The notes below the pieces were generated by a model, which saw only the letters and a list, made by a program, of their open reading frames with translations, was not told the DNA's origin and did not search any database. From Immundisolibacterales bacterium (GTDB lineage: Bacteria; Pseudomonadota; Gammaproteobacteria; HK1), in assembly GCA_026712715.1 (NCBI GenBank), contig JAPOPW010000018.1:1-64000 (forward strand): a stretch of 64,000 bases of DNA. The letters run 5' to 3'. Both the position numbers and the translations under genes were made by a program. Each line of letters begins with the position of its first letter. The stretch's first letter is position 1. This document shows, one piece after another, positions 55,668 through 63,992 of the stretch.

Positions 55668-57398
55668 TCAGGGCAGCTCGCCGGCGTCGCCGACGATGAA
55701 GACGGCGAGCGGCTCGCGGCGCCCGCGCACCGCCACCGCCTCCCCGCGCCATGCCGTGAGGTCCACGCCGGCCTCGCTCGCGACCTCGGCCGAGACGACG
55801 AGCTGCGCCCCGAACTCCTTCGACGTCGACTCGAGCCGGCTCGCGGTGTTCACCGTATCGCCGATCGCGGTGACGGACACGGCCGTGGCGTAGCCCATCT
55901 CGCCGACGATGGCGGGTCCGATGTGGATGCCCATGCCGATGCGAAGCGGGGCCGGTAGATCGGACTCGAGCAGCCGGTTGAGGGCGCGCAGCGCCTCCGC
56001 CATGCCCTTGGCCGCGGCGAGGGCCTGCGCGGCGCCGGCCGCCGGGGTCGTGTCGACTCCGAACAGGGCCATGATGCCGTCGCCGATGAACTTGTCGACC
56101 CGGCCGCCGGCTTGCTCGATCGCCTCCCCCATGGAGCGGAAGTAGCGATTGAGCACGAACACCACGTCGTAGGGCAGCTTCGCTTCGGCGATTCCGGTGA
56201 ATCCGCGGATGTCGGCGAAGAGCACCGCGATCGTCCGTTCCTCGCCTTGCATCGCCGCCGCCGCGCGCAACCCCTCGGCCGGGCCGGCGTTGGGGGGCAG
56301 GAGCGGGGTGACCGAGATCCCGGCGCTCGGGCGGAGCTGGCAGGCGAGACGCACGTCCGGGGGGACTCCGATCCGGTCGAGGACCCGGCGCTCCTCCGGC
56401 GACGGCGGCGGCAGCGCCTCGTGCCCCTCGTCGACGCGCACCCGGCAGGTCGAGCACCGGCTGCGCCCGCCGCAGACCGACGCATGCGCGATGCCGTTCG
56501 CCCGGCTCGCCTCGAGAACGGAGGTGCCGGGTGCGATGCGGACCTCGCGCCCGCCCGGATAGCGCACCCGCACCCGATGGCGCCGGCTCTCGAGCCGGTG
56601 GCGCACCTCGCGGGCGGCGAGCACCAGGGCGAGCACCGCGGCGAGCCCGACGAGGGTCCATCGCTCGACCGTGAGGAGGATCGCAAGGTCCTCGAGGGCC
56701 GGAGCATCGACCTCGGCGAGCAGCGCCTCGCGCCAGCCCGGCTCGTCGTTCAGCGCGGCCACGGTGCGGCCCGCGAAGACGAAGCCGAGCAGCGAGAATA
56801 CCGGCAGGAGCAACGCGGCGGCGAAGAGGTACGGGCGCACGCGGGCGTACCACGACTTCAGCCGGAGCCAGTAGTGCAGGCCGATGCAGGCGTGGCCCCA
56901 GACGATCACGGTCGCGGCCGCCTGGCGCAGCGCGACGGCCGGATCGTGGACCCACAGCGCGAGCAGCACGTAGGCGTAGGTGTCGTCGGTCCCGAACATC
57001 CGGTGGTTCGCGGCCGTGCCGAGAACATGGATGACGAGCAGCGGCGGGATCGCGATGCCGAGGAGGAGCTGGACCGCCTCGGGCCCCGGCATCCGCCAGC
57101 CCCGGCGCCGGTAGATGGCGTGGTAGGCGAGCCCCAGGTGGACCGCCATGCACGCGACGAGGATCGGCCCGGCCGGCGTGCCTCGCCAGAATCCGACGAA
57201 GACCTCCCGGCCGGCCTCCAGCACCTCGAGCGAGACGAGTCCGAGCGCGTGGTTCACGAGGTGGGTGGCGACGAAGAACGAAATCACCAGACCACTCGCA
57301 AGGCGCAGGTTGCGGGCGCTCCCGAAGCGCCGCAGTCGGTCCCCCGTCGTGCCCGTGGCCGGGCCGGGGAACGTGGGCAATCGGGAATGGCGGAGCAT
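55668..57398 (-). CDS. class III adenylate cyclase with SDH-like membrane domain and [2Fe-2S] ferredoxin domain (CyaC-like)
   Basis: The 576-aa protein has an N-terminal membrane part (about 33-262, six helices) rich in histidines (H46, H50, H87, H124, H169, H175) like succinate-dehydrogenase cytochrome anchors. A ferredoxin-like domain follows (about 275-368) with C309, C315, C318 and C353, then a class III cyclase domain (about 385-570) with metal aspartates D396 and D440. K436 and T510 sit where ATP-specific cyclases have Lys and Asp/Thr, so cAMP is the likely product. Redox or quinone control through heme and Fe-S is inferred by analogy with rhizobial CyaC. ATG 57398 is used; TTG 57473 would add 25 Pro-rich residues. 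The Alr-like gene lies just upstream. Confidence 0.88.
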   Translation of the reverse strand: MLRHSRLPTFPGPATGTTGDRLRRFGSARNLRLASGLVISFFVATHLVNHALGLVSLEVLEAGREVFVGFWRGTPAGPILVACMAVHLGLAYHAIYRRRGWRMPGPEAVQLLLGIAIPPLLVIHVLGTAANHRMFGTDDTYAYVLLALWVHDPAVALRQAAATVIVWGHACIGLHYWLRLKSWYARVRPYLFAAALLLPVFSLLGFVFAGRTVAALNDEPGWREALLAEVDAPALEDLAILLTVERWTLVGLAAVLALVLAAREVRHRLESRRHRVRVRYPGGREVRIAPGTSVLEASRANGIAHASVCGGRSRCSTCRVRVDEGHEALPPPSPEERRVLDRIGVPPDVRLACQLRPSAGISVTPLLPPNAGPAEGLRAAAAMQGEERTIAVLFADIRGFTGIAEAKLPYDVVFVLNRYFRSMGEAIEQAGGRVDKFIGDGIMALFGVDTTPAAGAAQALAAAKGMAEALRALNRLLESDLPAPLRIGMGIHIGPAIVGEMGYATAVSVTAIGDTVNTASRLESTSKEFGAQLVVSAEVASEAGVDLTAWRGEAVAVRGRREPLAVFIVGDAGELP

Positions 57399-57483
57399 CA
57401 GGGGGCGGCCGGTCGCGAACGCTCCGGGCAAGCGGTCCGGGACGCTCGCCGGCCGGAGGCTCGGCGGGGGCAAGCCGCTCCGG

Positions 57484-58614
57484 TCAGGGGGGGTCGCCGT
57501 CGTCGTAGTGGGCGGGGAGGCGACCGTCGAGCGCCATCAGGACGTGGTGCAGGCGCGTGCCCTGCCAGTCGGCGAGGTCGGCGAGGGTGATCGACTCGCC
57601 GCCGCTCTCGCCGAGCAGCACGACCTCGTCGCCGACCCCGGCGGCCGGCCGTGCGGAGAGGTCGAGGGTGATGTGCTCGAGGGAGACGCCCCGGATGGGG
57701 ACGCGGGCGCCGTCGACGAGGGCGCACGGCGAGCGTCCGGCGGCCGCGGGACGGTACCCGTCCGCGAGCCCGAGCGGAATCACCCCGATCCGGCTCGGCG
57801 TGTCGCGTTCCGGGAGGCCGCGCATGCCCGCCTTCGGGGGGCCGGCGTGGATGATGCGGCTCTTGATCGAGCGCAGCACCGGGCGGAACGCGGAGGTGTC
57901 CGCGACCGACGGCGCGATCGACGGCACCCCGTAGAGAAAGTGTCCCGGACACACCGCGTTGCCCCGGCTGGCGAGGCCCGCGACCATGCACGAGCTCGCA
58001 AGGGCCTGGGTCACGGGCACCTCGATTCCGGCCGCTTCGAGCGCCTCGAGCAGGGCGTCGAACCCGCGCAGGTGGCTCCGGGCCCACTCGCGCTCCATCT
58101 CGTCGTAGAAAGAGAGGTGGGTGTAGACGCCCTCGACCCGGAGGTTCGGGAGTCGCTGCAGCGCCCGGATGTACTCGAGGGCGTCGGGGAGGGGGACCCC
58201 GAGCCGCCCGAGACCGGCATCCACCTTGACGTACACCGGGGCGGTCCGGCCCGCCGCCGCTCCGGCCGCCGAAGCCGCTTCGGCGCCGGGGAGGTCGTAG
58301 ACGGTGGGCATCAGATCGTGCGCGAGAACGAGCGGGGCGGCCTCGGGGAGCGCGCCGGCGAACATCATGATCGGCAGCTCCACGCCGGCGCTCCGGATGG
58401 CGAGCGCGTCCTCGAAGCTCCCCGTCGCGAGGGCGAAGGTGTCGCCGTCGTCGGCCAGGGTCCGCGCCACCGGGGCGGCGCCGTGTCCGTAGGCGTTGGC
58501 CTTGAGGGCGGCGATGATCTTCGCCTCCGGACCCGCGAGCCGGCGGAGCTCGCGGGCATTGTGTCGAAGGGCGCCGAGATCGAACTCGGCCCGGTTCGGT
58601 CGGACGGATTCCAA
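57484..58614 (-). CDS. alanine-racemase-fold PLP protein with altered catalytic residues
   Basis: The 376-aa protein has the Alr N-terminal barrel: PLP lysine in ALKANAYGHG, KVDAGLGRLG with the conserved Arg, THLSFYD and CPGHFLYGV, then a beta domain with IPLGLADGYR. Two residues expected in true alanine racemases are missing: the Arg that contacts the PLP ring (R219 in the Geobacillus enzyme) aligns with Cys in NAVCPG, and the second catalytic base Tyr265 aligns with GMRG, which has no tyrosine. Racemase activity is thus doubtful. TTG 58614 gives the family-typical start; ATG 58683 would add 23 residues. It sits between the cyclase and an MBL-fold gene. Confidence 0.8.
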   Translation of the reverse strand: MESVRPNRAEFDLGALRHNARELRRLAGPEAKIIAALKANAYGHGAAPVARTLADDGDTFALATGSFEDALAIRSAGVELPIMMFAGALPEAAPLVLAHDLMPTVYDLPGAEAASAAGAAAGRTAPVYVKVDAGLGRLGVPLPDALEYIRALQRLPNLRVEGVYTHLSFYDEMEREWARSHLRGFDALLEALEAAGIEVPVTQALASSCMVAGLASRGNAVCPGHFLYGVPSIAPSVADTSAFRPVLRSIKSRIIHAGPPKAGMRGLPERDTPSRIGVIPLGLADGYRPAAAGRSPCALVDGARVPIRGVSLEHITLDLSARPAAGVGDEVVLLGESGGESITLADLADWQGTRLHHVLMALDGRLPAHYDDGDPP

Positions 58615-58762
58615 GTTGTCCCCCAATGCCGGCAATGCGATCGCCGGCGTTCGCTGGCCGATGACGGCGGTCGGCGGCAGCATACACTCCGTCGCGCCTC
58701 CGGCGCTTCTGAAACGGGGGGCGCTCCGGCATACTTCGCCGGTGAACACCGCCGGTCACGAG

Positions 58763-59581
58763 ATGTACGCCCGATTCTGGGGCGTGCGGGGGAGCATTCC
58801 GGTCGCCGATACCCGGTTCGCCCGGTACGGCGGGAACACCTCCTGCGTCGAGGTGCGCTGCGGCGACGCGCGGCTCGTGTTCGACGCGGGCACGGGGCTT
58901 CGTCCCCTCGCCGCCGCCCTTGACCGGGAAGGATGTTCCGACCTCGACCTCTTCCTGTCCCACGGGCACGTGGATCACGTGATCGGGCTTCCCTTCTTCA
59001 CCTTCGCGTACCGGCGGGAGAACTCCCTTCGGATCTGGTCCGGCCACCAGGAGGAGGAGGGCGCCACGACGGAATCGGGGGTCCGCCGCCTCATGAGCTC
59101 GCCCCTCCTTCCGATCACTCCCGACATCTTTCCCGCCGACGTCTCCTTCCGTGACTTCTCGCCGGGAAACGGGCTCTCGCCGGCCGCCGGGGTATCGATC
59201 CGCACCGCACGCCTGCGCCATCCGGGCGGGGCGACCGGCTACCGGGTGGACTACCGCGGGCGCAGCATCTGCTACGTCACCGACACCGAGCACGACCCGC
59301 AAGCGCCGGACGAGAACATCCTGGCCCTGGTCGAGGGCGCCGACCTCATGATCTACGACGCGATGTTCACCGACGACGAGCTCCCCCGCCACCGGGGATG
59401 GGGTCACTCGACCTGGGAGGAGGGGGCGCGCCTTTGCCGCGCGGCCGGGGTCGGGACCTACGTCATCTTCCACCACTCGCCGGAGCGCGACGACGAGGCC
59501 CTCGACCGAATCGGCGCTGCCGCCGAGCGCCTGCTGCCGGGCGCCGTGGTCGCTCGCGAGGGCCTTGCCCTGGTGCCCTGA
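58763..59581 (+). CDS. metallo-beta-lactamase-fold hydrolase
   Basis: The 272-aa protein starts MYARFWGVRGSIPVADTRFA, then the metal motif SHGHVDHVIGL (HxHxDH), a later YVTDTEHDP strand with the bridging Asp and a C-terminal FHHSPERDD histidine. The start fits a PhnP-like branch; the HxHxDH site also partly matches the class II cyclic nucleotide phosphodiesterase signature. Position next to an adenylate cyclase and a cyclic-nucleotide-binding protein makes a phosphodiesterase role attractive but unproven. ATG 58763 is preferred; GTG 58742 is possible. It is divergent from the Alr-like gene. Confidence 0.82.
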   Translation: MYARFWGVRGSIPVADTRFARYGGNTSCVEVRCGDARLVFDAGTGLRPLAAALDREGCSDLDLFLSHGHVDHVIGLPFFTFAYRRENSLRIWSGHQEEEGATTESGVRRLMSSPLLPITPDIFPADVSFRDFSPGNGLSPAAGVSIRTARLRHPGGATGYRVDYRGRSICYVTDTEHDPQAPDENILALVEGADLMIYDAMFTDDELPRHRGWGHSTWEEGARLCRAAGVGTYVIFHHSPERDDEALDRIGAAAERLLPGAVVAREGLALVP

Positions 59582-59880
59582 ATCCGCCAGGCCCCGGTAC
59601 CCTTGCACCGTGATCGCAATCGATTGAAGAACAGGAACCCCAGCGCCACGATGGTCTCGCCTGCGCCGTCCCGTCCGGTCGGGACCACTGTGCAGGGGCG
59701 CTGAATTTCTCGAGGGGCCCCGAGCTTCATGAACGAGTCGAGTCTGCAAACCGGTTTGCCGGATGAGAGAAACGAGGCTGCCAACGCTACGGAGCGGCCG
59801 GGTCTCGAACCAGGATGGGGGGCTTCGAACCGGTCTCGTCGGTCCGAGGTGCAGCCTCGCTAGGTCCCGAGGGCGGTTCG
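59582..59880 (+). promoter_or_regulatory. leader of the ABC gene containing repeat copy B
   Basis: This 299-bp spacer separates the MBL-fold gene from the ABC gene. It includes the 14-bp palindrome GCAAACCGGTTTGC at 59746-59759, copy B of the dispersed element (59721-59844), and a stem CGAGG/CCTCG at 59845-59859 just before the start codon. I find no convincing promoter boxes; transcription may begin here or upstream. Confidence 0.45.
59721..59844 (+). repeat. dispersed leader element, copy B
   Basis: This is the second copy of the element at 22136-22263. Conserved blocks are 59788-59811 and 59825-59844. Here TCGAACC occurs twice (59805-59811 and 59825-59831), while copy A has it once, as if 20 bp had been lost there between short direct repeats. 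The element ends 36 bp before the ABC gene ATG. Confidence 0.75.
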
Positions 59881-62493
59881 ATGGAACACTCGATCTACCG
59901 CTACGTCATCCGGCACTCGCTTCGCGCGCAGGTGGTGCTGACTCTCCTCGCGATCGCGTCGTTCCCCTTTCTCTACGCGTTCTACGAGCTTCCGAAGCAG
60001 ATCGTGAACCGGGTGATCCAGGGCGACACGGGGGACTTTCCGGCCGTCGTCCTCGACGTCTCCTTCACCCAGTTCGAGTACCTGTTCATCCTCTGCGGCG
60101 GGTTCCTCCTCCTCGTCGTCGCCAACCAGGCGTTCAAGTACGTGATCAACGTGCTCGCGGGGCGCACCGGGGAGCGCATGCTCCGCCGGCTCCGATACGA
60201 CCTCTACGCGCGGGTGCTGCGCTTTCCCCTGCCGCACTTCCGCAAGCTCTCCCAGGGCGAGATCATCACCATGATCACCGCCGAGGTGGAGCCGCTCGGG
60301 GGCTTCATCGGCGATGCGTTCAAGCTCCCCGTCTTCCAGGGCGGCTATCTCCTCGTCATCCTCGCCTTCCTGCTGGTGCAGAACTGGGTGATGGCCGCCG
60401 CCGCGGTGGCCCTCTATCCGCTCCAGTTCTACGTGGTCCCGAAGCTGCAGCGCCGCGTGAACTCGTTCGCCAAGGAACGGGTGCGGCTCGTGCGCCGGCT
60501 GTCCGATCGGATCGGGGAGACGGTTTCCGGGGTCCAGGAGATCCGCGGCAACGACACCTCCGCCTACGAGCGCGCCGCCATGTCCGCCGCGCTCGGCGAG
60601 ATCTACACGGTGCGCCTTCGCATCTTCATCTGGAAGTTCGTCATCAAGTTCCTGAACAACTCCATCAACCACCTCGGTCCGTTCTGCTTCTACTCGATCG
60701 GCGGCTACTTCGTGATCCAGGGGCGGCTCGAGATCGGCACCCTGATGGCCGCGATCGCCGCCCACAAGGACCTCGCCGCGCCCTGGAAGGAGCTGCTCAA
60801 CTACTACCAGCGCCGCGAGGATGCCCGGATCAAGTACGAGCAGGTGGTCACCCAGTTCAGCCCGCCGGGGATGCTCGACGAGTCGCTCCAGCTCGGGCCC
60901 CCGCCCCCGGGCGCCCGGGTGCACGGCGAGCTCGCGGCCTCCGGCCTCGCCCTCCGGGACGATACCGGGACGGTATTTCTCGAAGGGGTGTCGCTCGGCA
61001 TTCCCGCCGACGCCCCGGTGGCGGTGGTCGGTGCCCCGGGGAGCGGGCGCGAGGAGCTCGCCCTGGTGCTCGCCCGGTTGACGAGTCCCACCTCGGGAGC
61101 GCTCGTCATCAGTGGGGAGCGGTCGGATCGGTTGCACGAGGGGGTCACCGGCCGCCGGCTGGCCTTCGTCGGCCCGCACGCGTTCCTGTTCAACGCGACG
61201 GTGCGCGACAACCTCCTCTACGGACTCAAGCACGAGCCGGGTCCCGATGCGCGGCCGGACCCGCGCTGGGTGGCGGAAGCGGCGGTCGCCGGAAATTCGA
61301 CCGACGACGTCAACGGGGACTGGATCGACCACGAGGCCCTGGGCGGCGATCCACTCGGACGGATGATCGAGGTGCTCGCGATGGTCGAGCTCGACGGGGA
61401 CGTGTTCGACCTGGGACTGCGCGGCACGGTCGACGCGCGGGGCGACCTTCGCGATCGGCTGCTGCGCGCCCGCCGCGCGTTCCGCGAGCGGTTGGCGGAC
61501 CCTGCCATCGCGGCGCTCGTCGAGAGCTTCGACGCCGACCGCTACAACGACAACGCCACGGTGGGCGAGAACCTCCTGTTCGGGACGCCGGTGGGAGAAG
61601 GGTTCGACACGGAGCGCCTCGCCGAGAACCCCTGGGTCATGGAAGTGCTGGAGGCGGAGGGGCTGGTGCCGGTCCTGCTCGAGGCCGGGCGCACGGTCGC
61701 GGCCACCATGATCGAGCTCTTCTCCGGGCTGCCCCCCGGCCACACGGCGTTCGAACGGTTCAGCTTCATCGAGGCGGACGACCTGCCGGAGTACCAGGCG
61801 GTGCTCGATCGCGCCGCCCAGGACGGCCTCGAAGCGCTCGCGGCGGAGGATCGCGGCCGGCTCCTGTCGCTGCCGTTCCTGCTGCAGCCGGCGCGTCATC
61901 GCCTCGGGGTGGTCGATGACGACCTGCGGGCGCGGCTGCTCGCCGCCCGCCGCCGCTTCGCGGCGCGCCTGCCGGAATCGCTTCGGGACCGGATCCAGTT
62001 CTTCGAAGCGGACCGCTACAACGCGGCCGCCTCCATCCAGGACAACATCCTCTTCGGCAAGGTCGCCTACGGGCAGGCGCGGGCGGCGGAGAGGGTCAAG
62101 GGGCTGGTGACCGAGGTGATCGACGAGCTCGATCTCCGCTCCGCGGTGGTCGAGGCGGGCCTCGACTACCCGGTGGGGATCGGCGGAGGGCGTCTCGGCG
62201 CCGTGCAGCGCCAGAAGCTCGGGCTCGCCCGCGCCGTCGTCAAGCGGCCCGACGTGCTGGTGCTTTCCGATGCCACGGCCGGTCTCGACGGCGGCACCCA
62301 CGGACGCATCGCCGATCGCCTGTTCCGCGAGTTCTCCGGCCGCGGGCTCATCTGGTCCCTGCACCGGGCGGACCTCGCCCGCCCGTTCGACCGGGTGGTC
62401 GTGATGCGCTCGGCACGGGTGGCGGAGTCCGGTACCTTCGAGGAGCTCGACCGCGACGGGACCGCGCTCCGCGAGCTTCTCGAGGCAGGGTGA
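59881..62493 (+). CDS. ABC exporter-like protein with expanded, degenerate ATPase domain
   Basis: The 870-aa protein has an exporter-type six-helix membrane domain (about 15-330, including LRRLRYDLYARVLRFPLPHF), then a nucleotide-binding domain about 300 residues longer than normal. Walker A is GAPGSGREE (near 384-392): Lys is Arg and Ser/Thr is Glu. The signature is GGGRLGAVQRQ (near 768), Walker B is VLVLSDATAGLD (near 791) without the usual Asp-Glu pair; the switch histidine is present in WSLHRAD. A motif that follows the Q-loop occurs three times: FNATVRDNLLYG (about 440), YNDNATVGENLLFG (about 555) and YNAAASIQDNILFG (about 712). ATP hydrolysis looks weak or absent. A CNB gene follows 121 bp downstream. 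Confidence 0.85.
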   Translation: MEHSIYRYVIRHSLRAQVVLTLLAIASFPFLYAFYELPKQIVNRVIQGDTGDFPAVVLDVSFTQFEYLFILCGGFLLLVVANQAFKYVINVLAGRTGERMLRRLRYDLYARVLRFPLPHFRKLSQGEIITMITAEVEPLGGFIGDAFKLPVFQGGYLLVILAFLLVQNWVMAAAAVALYPLQFYVVPKLQRRVNSFAKERVRLVRRLSDRIGETVSGVQEIRGNDTSAYERAAMSAALGEIYTVRLRIFIWKFVIKFLNNSINHLGPFCFYSIGGYFVIQGRLEIGTLMAAIAAHKDLAAPWKELLNYYQRREDARIKYEQVVTQFSPPGMLDESLQLGPPPPGARVHGELAASGLALRDDTGTVFLEGVSLGIPADAPVAVVGAPGSGREELALVLARLTSPTSGALVISGERSDRLHEGVTGRRLAFVGPHAFLFNATVRDNLLYGLKHEPGPDARPDPRWVAEAAVAGNSTDDVNGDWIDHEALGGDPLGRMIEVLAMVELDGDVFDLGLRGTVDARGDLRDRLLRARRAFRERLADPAIAALVESFDADRYNDNATVGENLLFGTPVGEGFDTERLAENPWVMEVLEAEGLVPVLLEAGRTVAATMIELFSGLPPGHTAFERFSFIEADDLPEYQAVLDRAAQDGLEALAAEDRGRLLSLPFLLQPARHRLGVVDDDLRARLLAARRRFAARLPESLRDRIQFFEADRYNAAASIQDNILFGKVAYGQARAAERVKGLVTEVIDELDLRSAVVEAGLDYPVGIGGGRLGAVQRQKLGLARAVVKRPDVLVLSDATAGLDGGTHGRIADRLFREFSGRGLIWSLHRADLARPFDRVVVMRSARVAESGTFEELDRDGTALRELLEAG

Positions 62494-62614
62494 ACGAGCT
62501 GCGCACGGCGGATGGGACCGCGCGGCGCGGACGAGCTCGTGCGCCGCGGCGCGCGCGCAACGCAGCGGGAAGGCAGGTCGCGAACCCGGCCCGGCAGGAC
62601 GCAGGAGAGGAACC

Positions 62615-63073
62615 ATGAGCCTGAACGAAGAGGTTGAAGTCCTGCGGCGGGTGCCGCTGTTTGCCCGGATCGATCCGGCGAAGCTCAAGCTGCTCGCGTT
62701 CACGAGCGAACGGCTCGTCTTTCCGGCCGGCTCGGAGCTCTTCCACCAGGGCGATGCGGGAGATGCGGCCTACATTCTCCTCGACGGGGAGGCGGACATC
62801 CTCGTCGATACCCCCGAGGGGGAGATCGTCGTCGCGAAGGCGGGCCGCCACGAGTTCGTGGGGGAGATCGCGATCCTCATCGACGTCCCGCGCACCGCTA
62901 CCGTGCGGGCGCGAAGCGAGCTCTCCACCCTGGTCGTCACCAAGGAGACGTTCCTCGGCATGGCGTCCGAGTTCCCCGACGTCGCCATCGAGATCATGCG
63001 CGAGCTCGCCCAGCGGCTCGCGGACACCACCGCGCAGCTCACCGCGGCGCGAGCGGCGGCCGCCGCGGGCTGA
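62615..63073 (+). CDS. stand-alone cyclic nucleotide-binding domain protein
   Basis: The 152-aa protein is a single cNMP-binding domain of the CRP type: a beta-roll from about 10 to 115 with the phosphate-binding cassette FVGEIAILIDVPRTATVRA. E84 and R93 are the residues that hold cyclic nucleotide ribose and phosphate (CRP E72 and R82). A C-terminal helix rich in Ala ends the protein; there is no DNA-binding domain, so it should act on a protein partner. GGAGAGG precedes ATG 62615. The adjacent ABC protein is the obvious candidate partner. Confidence 0.92.
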   Translation: MSLNEEVEVLRRVPLFARIDPAKLKLLAFTSERLVFPAGSELFHQGDAGDAAYILLDGEADILVDTPEGEIVVAKAGRHEFVGEIAILIDVPRTATVRARSELSTLVVTKETFLGMASEFPDVAIEIMRELAQRLADTTAQLTAARAAAAAG

Positions 63074-63233: not shown

Positions 63234-63992
63234 TCAGGGCGAAGCGAGCGCGCGCTCGAGGGCCTCCTCGTGACCAAGGCCGAGGATCCAGGCCTCCTCG
63301 GTCTCGATGAGTCGGCGTTGCGAAGCGGTGAGAGACGCCGTGCCGCCGAACAGGGGCGCAAGACCGCCGCCCGCATCCAGCCGGGCGAAGGCCAGGGCAT
63401 TCACGCGCGCCTGGGCACAGTCGGAGATTTCGCCTTTTCGTGCGCGCGCATGGATCTCCCGCCTGAGCAACGAGGGATAGACCTCGGCGATCACCACGGC
63501 CGGCTCCTTCGGGGTCCGCAGGCCGGTTTGCAATGGCCAGATGGCGATCTGTCCGGCGATGCTCGAGTCCTCGATCAGGCGCTTGAGCGCGGGCAGACCG
63601 AGCAGGATCTGGGAGCCGACGGAGCCGGCATAGGCCAATTGCCATACGGTCTTCGCGCCCACGGCGAGTTGATCGGCGACGCGACGTTCCGGAGGGTGGC
63701 TTTCCCGCCCGGAGCGCGCTGACTTCTTTACCGGGATGGTCGGAAAGGACCAGCCGGCAGGACGGCCCCAGCAAGGGCCGAGCCCCGGATAGGCCGCGTT
63801 GATCTCCGCCGCGATCTCGTAGCGATTGTTCTCGTTGTCGGGCCCGTCATTCGTGCGCGCCGCCAGCCAATCCCACAGGGCAAGGGCCGAAGCCTCCCCG
63901 GTCAGGCGCCCGGCCACCCCTTCGGGATAGCCGAAGGGGAAATCGAATCCCACCAGCGCGCGCCGCCCGGCGTCAAGCTCGCCCTGGAGCAA
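63234..63992 (-). CDS. hypothetical protein with RNase-H-like (DUF429-type) features, N-terminus off window
   Basis: At least 252 residues are encoded and the frame continues through the right edge (reading VRLLQGELDAG), so the true start is outside. A VGFDFPFGYPEG segment resembles the IGIDAPLG-type strand of DUF429 proteins, and a later VIAEVYPSLLRREIHA segment resembles their EVYPAL block. No catalytic assignment is possible. It converges with the CNB gene across a 160-bp spacer. Confidence 0.6.
   Translation of the reverse strand: MLQGELDAGRRALVGFDFPFGYPEGVAGRLTGEASALALWDWLAARTNDGPDNENNRYEIAAEINAAYPGLGPCWGRPAGWSFPTIPVKKSARSGRESHPPERRVADQLAVGAKTVWQLAYAGSVGSQILLGLPALKRLIEDSSIAGQIAIWPLQTGLRTPKEPAVVIAEVYPSLLRREIHARARKGEISDCAQARVNALAFARLDAGGGLAPLFGGTASLTASQRRLIETEEAWILGLGHEEALERALASP

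Follow-up and report, generated by a model that had tools for sequence, protein, structure and literature searches.

The window, i.e. the entire 64,000-nucleotide stretch of DNA analyzed here, belongs to a 5.05 Mb genome assembly whose nearest public relatives carry the labels uncultured Gammaproteobacteria or Alphaproteobacteria. An open reading frame check combined with Pfam searches bore out the five consecutive genes of the initial annotation, both in their positions and in their domains, as well as the 121-bp gap between the ABC and CNB genes. Together with the gene that follows, they are arranged as listed below:

55668-57473, minus strand: class III adenylate cyclase of the CyaC type (PF00211 and Fer2, with an N-terminal membrane part)
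57484-~58690, minus strand: Alr-like protein (PF01168/PF00842)
58763-59581, plus strand: MBL-fold hydrolase (PF12706), a candidate cyclic-nucleotide phosphodiesterase
~59881-62493, plus strand: pseudo-ABC exporter (PF00664 and a split PF00005)
62615-63073, plus strand: stand-alone CNB protein (PF00027 only, no HTH)
63234-63992, minus strand: gene 3' of the CNB gene, with a match to NF011066 (MobB/unknown fusion) in its unknown domain only

The last of these genes returned zero Pfam matches. Homologs of the Alr, MBL, ABC, and CNB proteins are encoded in both congeners (G001 and G002) at 79-94% identity and a homolog of the cyclase in one of the two at 80% identity, which places the coding potential of the five genes beyond doubt.

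The ABC protein consists of a six-TM ABC_membrane domain (PF00664, 78 bits) and an NBD, for which PF00005 scores 41.6 bits over the N-terminal part. In the AF2 model (pLDDT 83.5), the NBD can be superimposed on that of ComA over 239 of 239 residues at 1.7 Å, and the full-length protein matches ABC exporters (Z approximately 29), with SUR also present among the structural matches. The protein possesses the ABC_membrane TM domain, which is strongly conserved and exporter-like, and the NBD fold of a type IV, MsbA-like ABC exporter; the consensus Walker A (GxxGxGK[ST]), Walker B (hhhhDE), and LSGGQ motifs are missing. The initial annotation had described an ABC exporter-like protein with broken ATPase motifs, and across 89 relatives the Walker A and B, signature, Q-loop, and H-loop positions indeed depart from consensus. 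Asp/Glu occupies the position of the Walker A Ser/Thr in 72 of these homologs and Asn/Ser that of the Walker B Asp in 71, LSxxQ takes the place of LSGGQ, and the Q-loop Gln and the H-loop His are kept in 18 and 47 of the 89, respectively. Because the consensus motifs are lost, we classify the protein as a pseudo-ABC protein and not as an active ATPase. With the Mg-coordinating Walker A Ser/Thr and Walker B Asp gone, efficient hydrolysis is not expected in most members of the family, and their ATP hydrolysis is probably impaired. A residual capacity to bind or turn over ATP may persist, since the Walker A Lys and the Glu after Walker B survive in 64/89 and 65/89 homologs, respectively, and the motifs look nearly intact in a few relatives from family f1.

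Between the Q-loop and the signature, the NBD carries an insert of approximately 240 amino acids, which is well ordered in the AF2 model. A helical-subdomain segment that follows the Q-loop, 'xTVxENLLFG', occurs in three copies in the NBD (window 61222-62184, residues ~470-790); a repeat test pairs two of the copies with a probability of 96%, and the core residues of the later two are almost invariant among the 89 homologs. The window protein shares its overall fold and TM domain with the type IV ABC exporters MsbA, TmrAB, and TM287-288, and differs from them in its degraded motifs, its insert with a repeated segment, and its CNB partner.

This partner comprises 152 amino acids, with PF00027 as the sole Pfam match, in agreement with its earlier description as a CNB-only protein; it contains no DNA-binding domain, and the C-terminal HTH of CRP/FNR transcription factors is missing. 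Its phosphate-binding cassette (PBC) reads GEIAILIDVPRTATVRA, and the positions of the GE...PR[TS]AT motif are maintained in nearly all of 88 closer homologs (G in 88, E in 86, P in 87, R in 88, A in 88, and T in 86). Among its nearest solved relatives are PKA/PKG regulatory domains. Judged by these features, the protein looks competent for cyclic-nucleotide binding.

To follow the ABC family through other genomes, its unusual NBD insert, taken as specific, was used as a probe. The probe detected one copy per genome in 11 of the 17 genomes of the window's order and, in a collection of species genomes, 478 stretches that encode the protein; the best 80 of these stretches come mostly from Alphaproteobacteria. 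At 76 of these best 80 loci the CNB gene lies directly 3' of the ABC gene on the same strand, and at one more (L059) the two are fused; elsewhere among the 80, a methyltransferase gene sits between them (L044), the CNB gene lies 5' of the ABC gene (L104), or no CNB gene was found at the ABC locus (L105). All 10 order-level relatives show the CNB gene directly 3' on the same strand. Within a further 29 loci, the CNB gene is adjacent in 20 and fused C-terminally in five, and no CNB gene was found beside the ABC gene in four divergent f74 members. C-terminal fusions, aligned by means of in-frame ABC and CNB rows, occur in L059, f109, and f91, and Azospirillum lipoferum encodes another, of 1,051 amino acids. 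Adjacency (77/80 with the fused locus counted) and natural fusions indicate that the CNB and pseudo-ABC proteins belong together, and their partnership, as proposed in the initial annotation, is well supported by gene order. Operon hitchhiking, with the CNB protein acting elsewhere and its position devoid of functional meaning, would account for the four f74 members without an adjacent CNB gene, whereas near-universal adjacency over many families and repeated fusions speak against it, and we regard it as highly improbable.

Of 74 separate pairs from L030-L109, 39 have the ABC stop and the CNB start in a common frame (one third expected; p = 5e-4, a value that ignores relatedness), which may be a relic of an ancestral fusion. 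Many of the gaps between the two genes in these loci hold a Shine-Dalgarno-like sequence.

The gene content around the pair is also recurrent, and the unit extends beyond the five genes of the initial annotation, which had overlooked its tie to a glycosyltransferase cluster. Among 398 genomes of Pseudomonadota, 31 carry the ABC family and 29 a glycosyltransferase that we take to be COG4671-like; 27 genomes, spanning 11 families, carry both, four the ABC family only, and two the glycosyltransferase only (Fisher p = 2e-35, which ignores relatedness). At most alphaproteobacterial loci, the pair divergently adjoins several glycosyltransferase genes, a histidine phosphatase gene, a deacetylase-like gene (so labeled by resemblance only, as one member scanned had zero Pfam matches), and a gene encoding an ABC ATPase of the oligopeptide type; 3' of the pair lies a Methyltransf_17 gene. 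Elsewhere in the window's family, the genes of this glycosyltransferase cluster come after the ABC and CNB genes, and in the window's own genome the cluster lies on another contig than the pair. Rhizobium and Sinorhizobium plasmids, including S. meliloti pSymB, show a like arrangement with a complete importer, and on pSymB a cyclase gene is located just 5' of the importer. These neighbors suggest a role of the ABC and CNB proteins in the export or assembly of surface glycans. A pseudo-ABC protein that is no transporter, and that acts as a SUR-like membrane receptor or scaffold relaying the state of the CNB protein to either the glycosyltransferases or the Opp-type importer, would fit the family-wide loss of ABC motifs, the importer ATPase, substrate-binding protein, and permeases within the cluster, and the structural match with SUR. 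We consider such a role unlikely, given that the TM domain is so strongly conserved and exporter-like, and the tie with the glycosyltransferases suits an exporter equally well.

In three loci from rhizobia and Azospirillum (L218, L220, and L221), the cluster holds a complete oligopeptide-type importer composed of an ATPase, a substrate-binding protein, and two permeases.

Regarding the ligand of the CNB protein, the closest precedent is HetC of Nostoc, an ABC exporter whose N-terminal CNB domain bound ppGpp and not cAMP (PMC10986499). HetC resembles the pair described here in that a CNB domain, in its case needed for function, belongs to an ABC exporter; it alone has a C39 peptidase, a required ATPase catalytic residue, and an N-terminal, fused CNB domain (PMC10986499), whereas in the window type CNB is usually encoded by a separate 3' gene, is C-terminal when fused, and accompanies a degenerate NBD. 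The HetC example, together with a degenerate PBC in some f74 and f91 members (in f74 even with an adjacent cyclase), would be consistent with a genuine pair in which the CNB protein senses another ligand or none, as a structural or ppGpp-type sensor subunit. We assign little probability to this explanation, because the window family keeps the canonical PBC Arg and Glu almost without exception and cyclases recur beside window-type CNB genes; the PBC exceptions fall in more distant members of a few families. The pair likely uses cAMP.

A degenerate PBC was observed in L150, L151, L213, L220, L209, and L210. CNB with a degenerate PBC is fused in f91 and A. lipoferum and separate in f74.

In L198, L199, and L209-L211, a class III cyclase gene follows 3' of the pair in the same orientation, and in L198 and L199 the ABC, CNB, MBL, and cyclase genes all share one strand. 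The cyclase and CNB genes are neighbors in L209-L211, f1 relatives, and L100; in L100, as in most of the remaining members of the window's family, they are convergent. Genome G433 encodes a single PF00211 cyclase overall, and a cyclase gene lies 1.2 kb from its CNB gene; where a genome has between one and seven cyclases, fewer than 0.01 would be expected by chance within 3 kb in each case. Among the best 80 of the 478 stretches, such proximity was found in approximately five of 55 loci with at least 4 kb downstream, and many alphaproteobacterial loci have no nearby cyclase. With cyclases nearby in several lineages but at so few of the 55 loci, the cyclic-nucleotide link is recurrent and not universal.

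In the MBL protein, HGHVDH and the later H, D, and H residues are invariant in 27 of 27 homologs. Compared with the HxHLDH signature of class II cyclic-nucleotide phosphodiesterases, it has HGHVDH only, and it scores 39 bits against the 400-bit cut-off of NF041851, in line with the partial signature originally noted for this PF12706 protein; its best solved relative is RNase Z. Among 27 genomes encoding an MBL homolog of at least 40% identity, 25 also carry the ABC family. A close homolog is encoded directly 3' of the CNB gene in nine sampled genomes (f87 and f110), and a search of f91 genomes yielded no close homolog. The MBL protein is a conserved optional member of the module and a candidate phosphodiesterase.

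The window's own cyclase has the CyaC-type architecture, namely a membrane domain with His, an adrenodoxin-type [2Fe-2S] domain, and a class III catalytic domain. The membrane His and the CGGRxRCxTC...C motif are conserved across three relatives (the window, G002, and G007), which, together with PF00211 and Fer2, agrees with the cytochrome-like and [2Fe-2S] domains proposed for it. S. meliloti CyaC, of the same architecture, comprises a six-TM membrane domain with heme, a [2Fe-2S] domain, and a class III cyclase; it responds to quinones, and its interaction with the regulators Clr and CycR has been demonstrated (PMC10463352, and Wissig 2019 as cited therein). The window cyclase, unlike CyaC with its tie to Clr and CycR, is not a conserved neighbor of the ABC-CNB pair: in G002 the ortholog and the pair are 3.7 Mb apart, and in G001 no ortholog was found. 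At the corresponding G002 site, a block comprising MATE, amidohydrolase, and cyclase genes is absent, and the window junction could also be an assembly error.

In the Alr-like protein, the PLP Lys motif is kept, and in three of three congeners the catalytic Tyr ('GYADG') is replaced by Leu and the PLP-ring Arg by Cys, which agrees with the key residues originally reported as lacking. Its TIGR00492 score is above the cut-off, yet the combination of PLP Lys and Tyr typical of alanine racemase is not present, and the protein is likely a non-racemase PLP protein. The Alr gene was rejected as a module member, as it lies beside the MBL and ABC genes only in the congeners G001 and G002.

The neighborhood survey consequently divides the initial proposal: the ABC-CNB pair is conserved and MBL proteins and cyclases recur with it, whereas the five genes do not form one conserved cassette, the redox cyclase being local to the source genome and Alr confined to the genus. 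In its complete form, that proposal ran from quinone redox state through the CyaC-type cyclase and cAMP to the CNB and then the ABC protein, with MBL and Alr in the same cassette. The likeness of the window cyclase to quinone-responsive CyaC (PMC10463352), the recurrence of MBL with the pair, and the position of the cyclase near the pair in a source genome that has only five would favor it. The distant ortholog in G002, the negative search in G001, and the lack of a Fer2 domain in the cyclases scanned beside other pairs, make it very unlikely. A redox-to-ABC link through the window's cyclase was rejected as a conserved feature, and since this cyclase is a local neighbor in the source genome only, redox state as the input is not supported.

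With moderate confidence, we favor a two-subunit, cAMP-controlled membrane switch built on a pseudo-ABC exporter, in which the ABC and CNB proteins would govern export or assembly in a surface-glycan locus. The ABC protein would provide an MsbA/TmrAB-type exporter fold with an NBD that, in most members, presumably lacks efficient ATP hydrolysis, and the CNB protein would bind cAMP and dock directly on it. A cAMP-dependent change in the CNB protein, either replacing ATP turnover or acting on top of it, could then gate flipping or export, or assembly, of a substrate that, to judge from the associated glycosyltransferases, may be a glycan or glycolipid. Cyclases encoded nearby would be the source of cAMP, which the MBL hydrolase may remove in many genomes. 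In a stricter, rather doubtful version, which we put forward tentatively, the ABC-fold protein would not hydrolyze ATP at all and the cAMP-binding subunit would itself drive or open glycan or glycolipid translocation, i.e. a cyclic-nucleotide-gated ABC exporter.

Known bacterial cAMP effectors are mostly transcription factors, alongside a few enzymes and channels. Bacteriocin-type transport-associated CNB proteins (TIGR03896) also have no DNA-binding domain and are linked to ABC exporter genes; the window CNB protein differs from them in its score (49 vs. a cut-off of 161) and its single CNB domain, and its linked ABC gene encodes a pseudo-ATPase in a glycan cluster. No description of the ABC-CNB module was found in the literature, which is weak evidence of absence because only open-licence PMC papers were searched. 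The analysis suggests an apparently undescribed, direct cAMP control of the bacterial surface via the ABC and CNB proteins, and the conservation and repeated fusion of the pair in alphaproteobacterial glycan loci suggest that a second messenger acts directly on surface assembly. Carriers include the plant symbionts Sinorhizobium and Rhizobium, and the pair offers a ready test system for an exporter fold without a normal ATPase, for which S. meliloti is tractable. The CNB ortholog on S. meliloti pSymB (L221, 14809-15273, approximately 154 amino acids) is annotated as a Crp/Fnr family transcriptional regulator; this annotation hides the CNB gene, whose product is too short to contain both CNB and HTH.
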